The notes under the pieces are model-generated. The model worked only from the letters and a program-made list of their open reading frames with translations. It had not been told where the DNA came from and did not search any database. DNA of 64,000 nt, from NCBI RefSeq assembly GCF_001870205.1, contig NZ_CP017267.1:1-64000 (forward strand). Reading direction: 5' to 3'. The position numbers and the translations under genes are program-made. The stretch comes from Vagococcus teuberi (GTDB taxonomy: Bacteria; Bacillota; Bacilli; Lactobacillales; Vagococcaceae). The first letter of the stretch is position 1. Each line of letters begins with the position of its first letter. Below, piece by piece: positions 38,936 to 54,351 of this stretch.

Positions 38936-38941
38936 GACTTA

Positions 38942-39014
38942 TGTTGCAAGATTCCCGATAGGATTTACATCTCGTGTAAAGATGCCTTGTAACCGACTAT
39001 ATTTAGGGGGAATG
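38942..39014 (+). promoter_or_regulatory. SMK box (SAM-III) riboswitch of metK
   Basis: The leader contains TTCCCGATAGGA, a hairpin TTTACATCTCGTGTAAA, GATGCCTTGTAACCG, and then the ribosome binding site AGGGGG (39005-39010). This is the arrangement of the SMK box of enterococcal and streptococcal metK leaders: with SAM bound, the GGGGG is paired with the upstream CCC element and translation stops. The class is confined to Lactobacillales, which supports the taxonomic reading. Assigned from recalled consensus, not from a covariance search. Confidence 0.93.
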
Positions 39015-39018
39015 AAAG

Positions 39019-40206
39019 ATGAAAGAAAGAAAATTATTCACGTCAGAGTCTGTATCGGAAGGACATCCTGACAAAGTAGCAGATCAAATTAGCGACGCAA
39101 TACTAGATGCGATACTAGAAAAAGACCCAATGGCACGAGTAGCGTGTGAGACAAGTGTCACAACTGGTTTAGTGCTAGTGTTTGGTGAAATCACAACAAG
39201 AGCTTATGTTGATATCCAAAAAGTTGTTAGAGAAACCATTAAAAACATTGGTTACACACGGGCAAAATATGGATTTGATGGTGATACATGTGCTGTCATG
39301 GTTGCGATTGATGAGCAATCACCAGATATTGCACAAGGAGTTGATGCGTCACTTGAAACACGTGAAACCTCAACTAGTGAAGAAGATTTAGGTGCCGGAG
39401 ACCAAGGATTAATGTTTGGCTTTGCGATTGATGAAACACCAGAATTAATGCCATTACCAATTGCTTTAAGTCATCGAATCACTCGAAAATTGTCTGAACT
39501 TAGAAAAAATGACACGTTGCCTTATTTACGTCCTGATGCAAAATCTCAAGTGACTGTTGAATACGATGAGAATGATAAACCTTTAAGAGTGGATACAATT
39601 GTTGTTAGTACACAACATGATGAAGACACAACATTGGAACAAATTCAAAAAGATGTTACCGATTTAGTCATAAAAGAAGTGATTCCAAGTGAATTACTTG
39701 ATGATAAAACAAAATACTATATTAACCCAACTGGTCGCTTTGTTATAGGTGGACCTCAGGGAGATTCTGGTTTAACAGGTCGAAAAATTATTGTTGATAC
39801 CTATGGAGGATACGCTCGCCACGGTGGTGGGGCATTCTCAGGAAAAGATGCGACAAAAGTTGACCGCTCAGCAAGTTATGCTGCCAGATATATTGCAAAA
39901 AATATCGTCTCAGCAGGACTAGCGACAAAATGTGAAGTTCAACTTGCTTATGCCATTGGGGTAGCTCAACCTGTTTCGATTTCGATTGAAACATTTGGAA
40001 CAAGCGACTACAAAGAATCAGAACTGATTGCTGCTGTGAGATCCTTGTTTAATCTATCACCAACTGGTATTATAAACATGTTGGACCTAAGACGTCCTAT
40101 CTACAAAAAAACAGCTGCATACGGTCATTTTGGTCGTGATGATGAAGACTTTACTTGGGAAAAAACAGATAAAGTGGACGACTTGAAACAATTTTTAGCA
40201 AAATAA
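39019..40206 (+). CDS. metK: S-adenosylmethionine synthetase
   Basis: Makes SAM from methionine and ATP. The 395-residue protein has [24 protein letters not shown], the [12 protein letters not shown] hexapeptide region, and the P-loop-like [16 protein letters not shown]. The start at 39019 sits eight bases after the ribosome binding site; an ATG at 39012 is in another frame. SAM feedback through the SMK box upstream gives closed-loop control. Confidence 0.98.
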
Positions 40207-51356: not shown

Positions 51357-54071
51357 ATGAAAAAAAATAAATTACTACTAAATCAATCAATGACTCGTCA
51401 TGCTTCTTTGTTTGGCACTGTCTTGTTGTCGTCTACAGTGCTTTTACCTGGTGTTACCGTGTGTGGCTTCTGATAGTATCCGTGATGAAATACAAAATGC
51501 ATCTAATGAAACAACTCAGGATAAAAAAGCAGCAAATAGTTGGACGTTGTTGTCTATTAGTGGAGAAAATGAATGGATAGAAAATAACCAGCCATTGGAC
51601 TTAACTGTAAACTTAGAAGCTCATCAAGTCGAAAATCTAGACACTGTGATAAATTTATCGGCGAATACAGTGATTAAATCTGACGTAGCAGATTTATCAA
51701 TAAAGGATGAGACGGGTAGAGTAATCGGAACGTATACTATTAATAGTGAGTTAAATCAATTATTATTAACATTTACAGAAAAACAATTTACAAAGGCGAT
51801 TATCCAAGTTCCTATAAACTTTAAAAAAACTGAATTAAGGGAACAAACAGTGGCGTTCTCCGTTGGGGAAAGCGTCATATCTAAAACAATTAAAACGATT
51901 GCCAATCCTCAAGAAGAAAATGCGACATCTGATTTATTAGAAGATTCTGTTGAACATCAGGACAATCAAGATAATACAGTATCTGAATCAAGGCAGGTAG
52001 AAGAAACTGAGCGAGTGCAAGAGTCATCAGCAAATGAAGAAAAAGTTATTGATGATCAAACAAGTGATTCAGTGTCTGTTATGGCATCAAGTGGTTTATT
52101 AGAAGATTCTGAAGAAACTACTAATTCTGAAGTAGAAACAAGTACAAATGAACCTGTCAAATCTGAAGATTCTACAACAGACACTTCAAAAGAAGAACCA
52201 AAAGAAGAACCAAAAGAAGAACCAAAAGAAGAACCAAAAGAAGAACCAAAAGAAGAACCAAAAGAAGAACCAAAAGAAGAACCAAAAGAAGAACCAAAAG
52301 AAGAACTAAAAGAAGAACCAAAAGAAGAACCAAAAAAGAACCAAAACCAGCTACTATCGTAGTTCCAACACCAAAAGTAAGGTCATTTAAAGCGGCAACG
52401 CCTCAAGCGACTTTTATTGAAAGTATTGCTTCTCATGCGCAAAGTGTTGCAGCTGAAAATGACCTCTATGCATCCGTGATGATTGCTCAAGCTATTCTTG
52501 AAAGTGGTTATGGATCAAGTACATTGTCATTACCACCCAATCACAATCTATTTGGAATTAAAGGAACCTATAATGGGCAGTCTGTAACGATGCAAACACA
52601 AGAATTCTATAATGGTCAATACGTCACTATAAATGATGCTTTTAGAAAGTATCCATCATACCGTGAGTCTTTGCAGGATAATGCTCATGTATTAAAAACG
52701 ACATCATTTGCTCCGGGAGTTTATTTTTATTCAGGTGCGTGGAAGTCAAATACAAGTTCTTATATGGATGCGACTAAATGGTTAACAGGTAAATATGCGA
52801 CAGATCCGACTTACAATATCAAATTAAACAATTTGATTATGACTTATAATCTGACGCAATATGATGATGCTAGTTATACAGGCCCTGTGACAACACCTAC
52901 CGGGACAGGAAGTGGCAATAATGGTGGTAGTCAAAGTAATACATCTACAATGGGAAATTCTTCTACTTATACGGTGAAAAGTGGTGATACATTATATCGT
53001 ATTGCACAAAATTATGGTATGAGCGTACAAGAATTGAAACAACTGAATGGGTTAAGAACTGATATGATTTATGTTGGACAACAATTAAAAGTCAAAGGGA
53101 ATAGTGGAACACCTACAGTTGACTCTATCGTGGATACTACTAGTTCAAATGAAAGTACTTCAAATAATAATAAACCCAATAATTCAACTAGTTCAAACAA
53201 TTCTTCAGCAACTTACACAGTGAAGAGTGGCGACACATTGTACCGAATTGCATTAAATAATGGTATGACTGTCCAAGAATTAAAACAATTAAATGGTTTA
53301 ACGAGTGATTTAATCCATGTAGGACAACAACTAAAAATTGCTGGTAATGCATCGAGTGGTAGTGCTTCATCAACCAATTTGTCAGGAAATACGGTGGGAA
53401 ATACTACAAGTCATAAAGTTAAGCGCGGTGACACACTGTATGGTATTGGTTTGACATATGGCATTAGTGTTCAAGAGTTAAAACAATTGAATAACTTAAG
53501 CAGTGATACCATTTATATTGGTCAATCTTTAAAAGTTAGCACAAAACAGAGCACGTCAACAATAGTTAATACTGAAAATAGTGCTCAAACGACGCATATT
53601 GTCAAACGTGGTGATACGTTGTATGGTATTGGTCTTAGATATAATGTTTCACCTAATGATATTAAACAATGGAATGGTTTAAATAGTGAGTTGATTTATG
53701 TAGGTCAATCATTAAAAATTAATCAGTCAAGTAAAACAAATACGACAACACCGGTTAAAACAACAGTAGGAAAATATACTGTTAAATCTGGTGACACACT
53801 TTATCGTATTGCATTAGATAATAAAACAACTGTTCAAGAATTAAAGAGAGTTAATAATTTAAGTAGTGACTTTATCCATGTAGGTCAACAGTTGACATTA
53901 CCGGGTACTAGTACTGACGCAGTATCTAAAAATACACGTCACACAGTCAAAGCAGGGGAATCTTTGTGGGCAATTTCTAAAAAATACAACACAAGTGTGA
54001 GTCAACTGAAGAAGTGGAATAACTTATCAACGAACATTATTTATGCCAATCAAGTCTTACGAGTAAGCTAG
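51357..54071 (+). CDS. atlA: AtlA-like N-acetylglucosaminidase with six LysM repeats, frame interrupted twice
   Basis: Peptidoglycan hydrolase for daughter-cell separation. The signal peptide starts at ATG 51357 (AGGAGA upstream) but stops at 51469. The mature part reads on in the +1 frame from about 51460 (…VASDSIRDE) to a TAG at 52360. The catalytic part continues in the original frame. It starts before the internal ATG at 52476, with [14 protein letters not shown] and [17 protein letters not shown]. Order: Glu/Thr-rich region, KEEP repeats (52189-52343), GH73 glucosaminidase with [10 protein letters not shown], then six LysM domains beginning near 52970, 53210, 53410, 53594, 53777 and 53938. 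The domain order matches Enterococcus faecalis AtlA. The shifts cancel out, leaving a 904-codon frame. It is either a pseudogene, an assembly error, or a recoded gene. Confidence 0.85.
52189..52343 (+). repeat. 12-bp tandem repeat encoding KEEP, 12 full units plus one 11-bp unit
   Basis: AAAGAAGAACCA repeats from 52189 to 52332, with one C-to-T variant unit (52297-52308, giving KEEL). The 13th unit, 52333-52343, lacks one G and has 11 bases. Because units are multiples of three, copy number changes length without changing frame, except in the last unit, where the missing base causes the -1 shift. Confidence 0.95.
52332..52362 (+). promoter_or_regulatory. Candidate -1 frameshift site (A AAA AAG) with downstream hairpin
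   Basis: In the frame used upstream, the codons CCA AAA AAG create the heptamer A AAA AAG at 52332-52338, the strongest known bacterial -1 slippery sequence, as in dnaX. A -1 slip there gives GAA CCA AAA CCA GCT and enters the catalytic frame. Without a slip, translation ends at TAG 52360-52362. A small hairpin, CTAC-TATC-GTAG, spans 52351-52362. There is no AGGAG-like stimulator upstream. Confidence 0.45.
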
Positions 54072-54106: not shown

Positions 54107-54351
54107 AATAATATCAAAACAAGTAGTTAAGAAGTAGTAAAATAGAAAGTTTTTAAGAGAGTATGTGGTTGGTGGAAACATACAAATGGACTATTTGAAC
54201 TTGTCTTAAGAAAAAGTTACTTGTCGGAAAGTCTATTTTCGTTAACATGGATTAGAGGTGTTCTAGTATATCTAGGCACAAATTTAGGTGGTACCACGTC
54301 AGTCAACGTCCTATGAAGACACAACAGTGTTTTTGTAGGACGTTTTTTTAC
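54107..54351 (+). promoter_or_regulatory. T-box leader controlling leuS
   Basis: The conserved T-box AGGTGGTACCACG is at 54286-54298. Its TGGT would pair with the ACCA end of uncharged tRNA-Leu. The competing terminator follows: AACGTCCTA (54305-54313) pairs with TAGGACGTT (54336-54344), then a T-run. Stem I probably begins around GTATGTGG...CATAC (about 54161-54183). I could not fix the specifier codon with confidence. Low charged leucyl-tRNA should allow leuS transcription. Confidence 0.93.

Follow-up and report, generated by a model that had tools for sequence, protein, structure and literature searches.

The slippery heptamer A AAA AAG drives programmed –1 frameshifting in bacterial dnaX, and prfB carries a stop codon just past its +1 shift site. 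The closest described counterpart of the protein discussed here, AtlA of Enterococcus faecalis, is a protein of 737 residues (PMC5542707) that combines a signal region, a disordered-type N-terminal region, a GH73 domain and six LysM modules (architecture after PMC10113225 and PMC5542707). Its catalytic domain is represented by PDB entry 7QFU, with catalytic glutamates named E212 and E246 (PMC9108991), and inactivation of atlA in E. faecalis leads to long chains (PMC10113225). Here we describe a Vagococcus gene that has the parts of AtlA but is broken at two sites, one of which carries the dnaX heptamer.

Layout of the gene and its predicted product

Within the window, by which we mean the whole 64,000-nucleotide stretch analysed, the gene occupies 51357-54071 on the forward strand and falls into three frame segments. 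It opens in frame 0 with a start and an extended signal-peptide region (51357..51476), whose MKKNK start is common to three relatives (G009, the nearest, together with G008 and G012), and which runs for 38 codons from ATG 51357 into a double stop (TGA at 51471, TAG at 51474). A middle ORF of 320 aa in the +1 frame (51400..52362) encodes an N-terminal domain, whose weak match to Big_8 falls short of the cut-off, followed by KEEP repeats of acidic character, and reaches its first stop at 52360 (TAG). The GH73 glucosaminidase domain (52428..52856) and six LysM modules with the stop codon (52968..54071, the start being counted from the first LysM in protein P0003) are again in frame 0. As the preliminary description had stated, the signal-peptide and catalytic parts thus share one frame, which ends at 54071, and the roughly 880 bases between them are open in the +1 frame only, frame 0 having 36 stops within 51471-52170. 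That description assigned these frames correctly but closed the gene at 52480, well before its actual end. It also called the two frameshifts cancelling, which is true of their arithmetic and of nothing else: because ribosomes meet TGA TAG (51471-51476) right after the first shift, real translation ends there, and in the window the signal peptide and N-terminal domain are not in one frame with GH73.

The catalytic domain matches Pfam PF01832 with 107.8 bits (cut-off 30.2), and its best PDB match is 7QFU (E 7.1e-70). Both AtlA catalytic glutamates are aligned and present in that comparison, at codons 52500-52502 and 52602-52604, which were matched to E212 and E246 by counting along the alignment by hand. 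Six C-terminal LysM stretches were found in P0003 by domain search. The gene product is AtlA-like, a septum-cleaving N-acetylglucosaminidase by predicted activity, and it shares with AtlA the order of signal region, disordered-type N-terminal region, GH73 and six LysM modules. It differs in that its N-terminal region consists of the KEEP repeat array and a longer domain, and in being broken at two sites. Three further GH73 loci in the genome, all open (210, 559 and 477 aa), mean that some redundancy is possible.

The gene lies near the start of the first of two contigs (2,169,060 and 15,225 bases, 2,184,285 in all). Directly after it, and before leuS, stands a T-box leader (RF00230; 54121-54316), the end of which is overlapped by a terminator-like stem (54305-54344). 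A SAM-III (SMK box) riboswitch is located at 38939-39021.

Two frame breaks and their absence from relatives

Each of the other 13 genomes in the genus carries the gene as a single open frame of 832-1020 aa, larger than AtlA, as judged by N-terminal and GH73 matches that give an equal open-frame length in each genome. The comparison of orthologues that the preliminary description had proposed therefore finds 13/13 Vagococcus genomes unbroken, and among the genomes compared the breaks are confined to this one. The nearest relative, G009, is 97% identical in the DNA of leuS; for GH73 the identity is 99% and for the middle domain 92%, and its single ORF of 917 aa aligns to the window in two frames, with 89% identity in each, a match that is beyond chance. 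A family search (E <= 1e-50) gave a match in 24 of the 29 genomes searched, ten of them outside the genus and with best-match frames of 651-954 aa, figures that refer to frame lengths only. A search with P0003 among named genomes returned 19 loci, one of them in Vagococcus (V. bubulae).

Both break sites proposed earlier were recovered by DNA alignment, in which the window and G009 diverge in length around 51463 and again around 52336, each time by a number of bases not divisible by three. The 5' break (51459..51466) adjoins the signal-peptide cleavage region. It contains neither a homopolymer nor a recognised slippery signal, in keeping with the doubt already expressed about this site. The 3' break falls, as predicted, in the last unit of a 12-base tandem array coding for KEEP (52187..52346), which bridges the overlap of the two frames and whose copy number is not the same from species to species, with 13.4 copies in the window against 16.4 in G009. 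At this point, the middle frame reads CCA AAA AAG, so that A AAA AAG (52332..52338) stands in the exact phase that had been claimed for it. A 6-bp stem-loop (52349..52364) is predicted 10 bases past the heptamer. Further on, at the junction of linker and GH73, a 20-base inverted repeat (52380-52399 / 52446-52465; 85% complementary) pairs more strongly than in G009.

A scan of genes shared with G009, covering 140,322 + 127,513 aligned bases out of ~2.18 Mb, found only these two one-base frame breaks in this genome in 267,835 aligned bases, both of them within a single 2.7-kb gene that makes up ~1% of the aligned length. G009 is inverted across the second scanned region, and the scan is blind to gene ends (a 45-base margin), to genes of < 100 aa and to DNA outside the aligned blocks; loci L098-L107 yielded nothing. 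Eight candidates were judged to be something other than a one-base break of this genome within a shared gene and set aside: start-region extensions (73326, 162257, 29862 and 253504), block or gene ends and opposite-strand ORFs (26715, 280196 and 364675) and a pair of whole ORFs whose alignment is gapped (148780). Four larger breaks were seen elsewhere in this genome, in genes that are whole in G009, and no one-base read error explains them. They comprise an OTC-family gene, so assigned by family search, with several lesions (L089:19580), a sigma-54-activator/PRD gene with its start broken by a short tandem duplication (L089:2929-2987), an RNA pseudouridine synthase gene ended early by a short duplication (L084:15843), and the remnant of an MmgE/PrpD-family gene (L091:13629). 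Genes are therefore being lost in this genome. The reverse comparison revealed one-base breaks in A runs of G009, in a peptidase U32 gene (L077:17371) and a phosphorylase superfamily gene (L112:14642), both whole in the window's genome, which are possibly errors of the G009 assembly.

The heptamer and the case for recoding

The preliminary description had held that the 3' break might be tolerated by recoding. For some full-length autolysin to be made in this way, ribosomes would have to shift by +1 at the first site and slip by –1 at A AAA AAG, an outcome we regard as extremely improbable; the same very low credence attaches to an elaboration in which double recoding would keep autolysin scarce, with trace full-length enzyme, slow septum cleavage and a chain-forming dairy organism. 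The exact phase of the heptamer speaks for recoding at first sight. Yet that phase is forced, since one event broke the frame and created the heptamer, and, because the same change made the frame break, it constitutes no independent evidence. Nor is an in-phase A AAA AAG beyond chance, its frequency being about what codon usage predicts: of 107 conserved ORFs in the first 172 kb, 11 contain one, against a mean of 9.6 (sd 2.8) in 200 codon shuffles, where the 107 count the two fragments of this gene separately and the 11 include this site. Heptamers of the form A AAA AAR also stand in phase inside unbroken frames of the relatives, read as far as the loci reach, and neither break site is kept in any of the 13, the heptamer at that position being found in this genome only.

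Given stimulators, A AAA AAG ranks with the most efficient frameshift motifs of E. coli (PMC4066793), and the fold of 52320-52480 is stronger than that of shuffled sequences (z -3.27, 0/200; for 52339-52420, z -1.85). However, the stem-loop near the heptamer is also predicted in the unbroken gene of G009, and the fold of another unbroken relative, G008, is equally strong across 150 bases (-37.6 vs -37.9). Since the stretch 52300-52345 contains no GG, the site lacks an upstream Shine-Dalgarno-like (SD-like) stimulator of the kinds set out in PMC4066793. According to the same paper, shift-prone motifs without stimulators act 2.1- to 10-fold over a background of 0.055% in E. coli, and hence at about 0.5% at most.

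Reaching the heptamer is a further obstacle. The stop codon right after the 5' shift recalls the arrangement in prfB, but a +1 event at a place without a known signal would have to come before any –1 slip, and ribosomes starting at 51357 never arrive at the heptamer because the 5' break leads them into TGA TAG. Internal restarts do not supply another route. The only frame-0 starts before 52524 are 52476 and 52479, which lie inside GH73 and would give a product with no signal peptide, while starts in the middle frame (51400, 51412, 51451 and 51463) show no clear SD on inspection by eye. Conservation, stimulators, the base rate of the heptamer and the upstream stop all speak against recoding at the 3' site, and the suggestion that it makes the break tolerable is not supported.

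Probable inactivation, possible consensus error and comparison with known systems

The reading that we consider probable is that an AtlA-like gene was recently inactivated in this lineage, where we infer both breaks at the level of the DNA and the resulting phenotype. A one-base change beside the signal-peptide cleavage region would have ended translation after 38 codons, and a second, independent frame change would have arisen in the final repeat of the 12-base array. No secreted enzyme would be made, and the analogy with E. faecalis suggests that cells form longer chains, unless the genome's other GH73 enzymes compensate. The gene does carry what defines a pseudogene, a lesion that prevents the product, TGA TAG after 38 codons, and that is absent from relatives; two one-base breaks in one gene of this size are as expected once a gene is dead. 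Against inactivation stand the array, which is hard for read correction, and the state of the coding sequence. In the pair formed by the window and G009, dN/dS is 0.382 for the middle segment, 0.041 for GH73 and 0.252 for LysM, as against 0.22, 0.083 and 0.181 in an unbroken control pair (G008-G012), and none of these differ by Fisher test (p 0.38, 1.0 and 0.38, respectively), so that relaxed selection is not visible in any segment. The middle value exceeds the highest seen over 100 gene pairs (0.344; median 0.0775), but this segment is fast between unbroken relatives as well (0.21-0.36 where computable). As the domains have not decayed, the break, if real, is young.

The undecayed domains would equally be expected if both breaks were errors in the consensus of an assembly made from PacBio reads alone, with the gene whole in the organism, a reading to which we give a substantial minority of the weight. 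The probable source, V. teuberi DSM 21459T, was sequenced on PacBio RS II at 475x with CLC read correction and assembly, giving a reported chromosome of 2,169,064 bases and a 15-kb plasmid, and neither another sequencing platform nor short-read polishing is mentioned (PMC5270701). That all 13 relatives are unbroken, that one break lies inside a tandem array of 160 bases, and that G009 too has two one-base breaks, both in A runs, point the same way. On the other side, the absence of any further one-base break in the aligned bases implies a low error rate and rejects a generally error-ridden assembly, no homopolymer is present at the 5' site, the coverage is stated to be high, and it would take a coincidence to place two errors in one gene, unless this locus is a hard one. 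Inactivation is favoured over consensus error, as the more probable of the two by a clear measure, because there are no other one-base breaks, because both fall in one gene and because larger gene breaks exist elsewhere. The two could also be mixed, the 5' change being a real event and the 3' change an error, or the reverse.

Contingency loci usually have tracts of a certain length, and the variation in array copies between species might suggest a polymorphic or phase-variable switch whose breaks flip on and off within the population. This we think decidedly improbable: two sites would need to change together, every relative is in the unbroken state, a tract of the usual length is lacking at the 5' site, and changes in the number of 12-base units preserve the frame, which excludes phase variation by array length.

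If inactivation is correct and the breaks are in the DNA, a type strain from fermented milk would very recently have lost its main predicted septum-cleaving autolysin, and long chains with reduced autolysis are predicted; should they instead be errors, one locus of the public genome record has to be corrected. Either way, the locus has no bearing on recoding, and what it presents is nothing out of the ordinary, either an AtlA-like gene that was disrupted recently or a consensus error confined to this locus, with recoding unsupported. The likeness to dnaX-type –1 frameshifting extends to the same heptamer and phase, whereas an upstream SD, a conserved site and a conserved two-product design are absent here, no stimulator specific to this site stands out, and an upstream stop keeps ribosomes from arriving. 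Among the literature matches listed, none reports by title a natural autolysin frameshift in enterococci. A parallel exists with the singleton frame-disrupted genes of GeneTack, which likewise have a homology-validated frame change that is not common to relatives and are read as sequencing errors or indel mutations (PMC3711429); the present gene departs from them in that it combines two breaks, opposite in sign, and carries a slippery heptamer at one of these.
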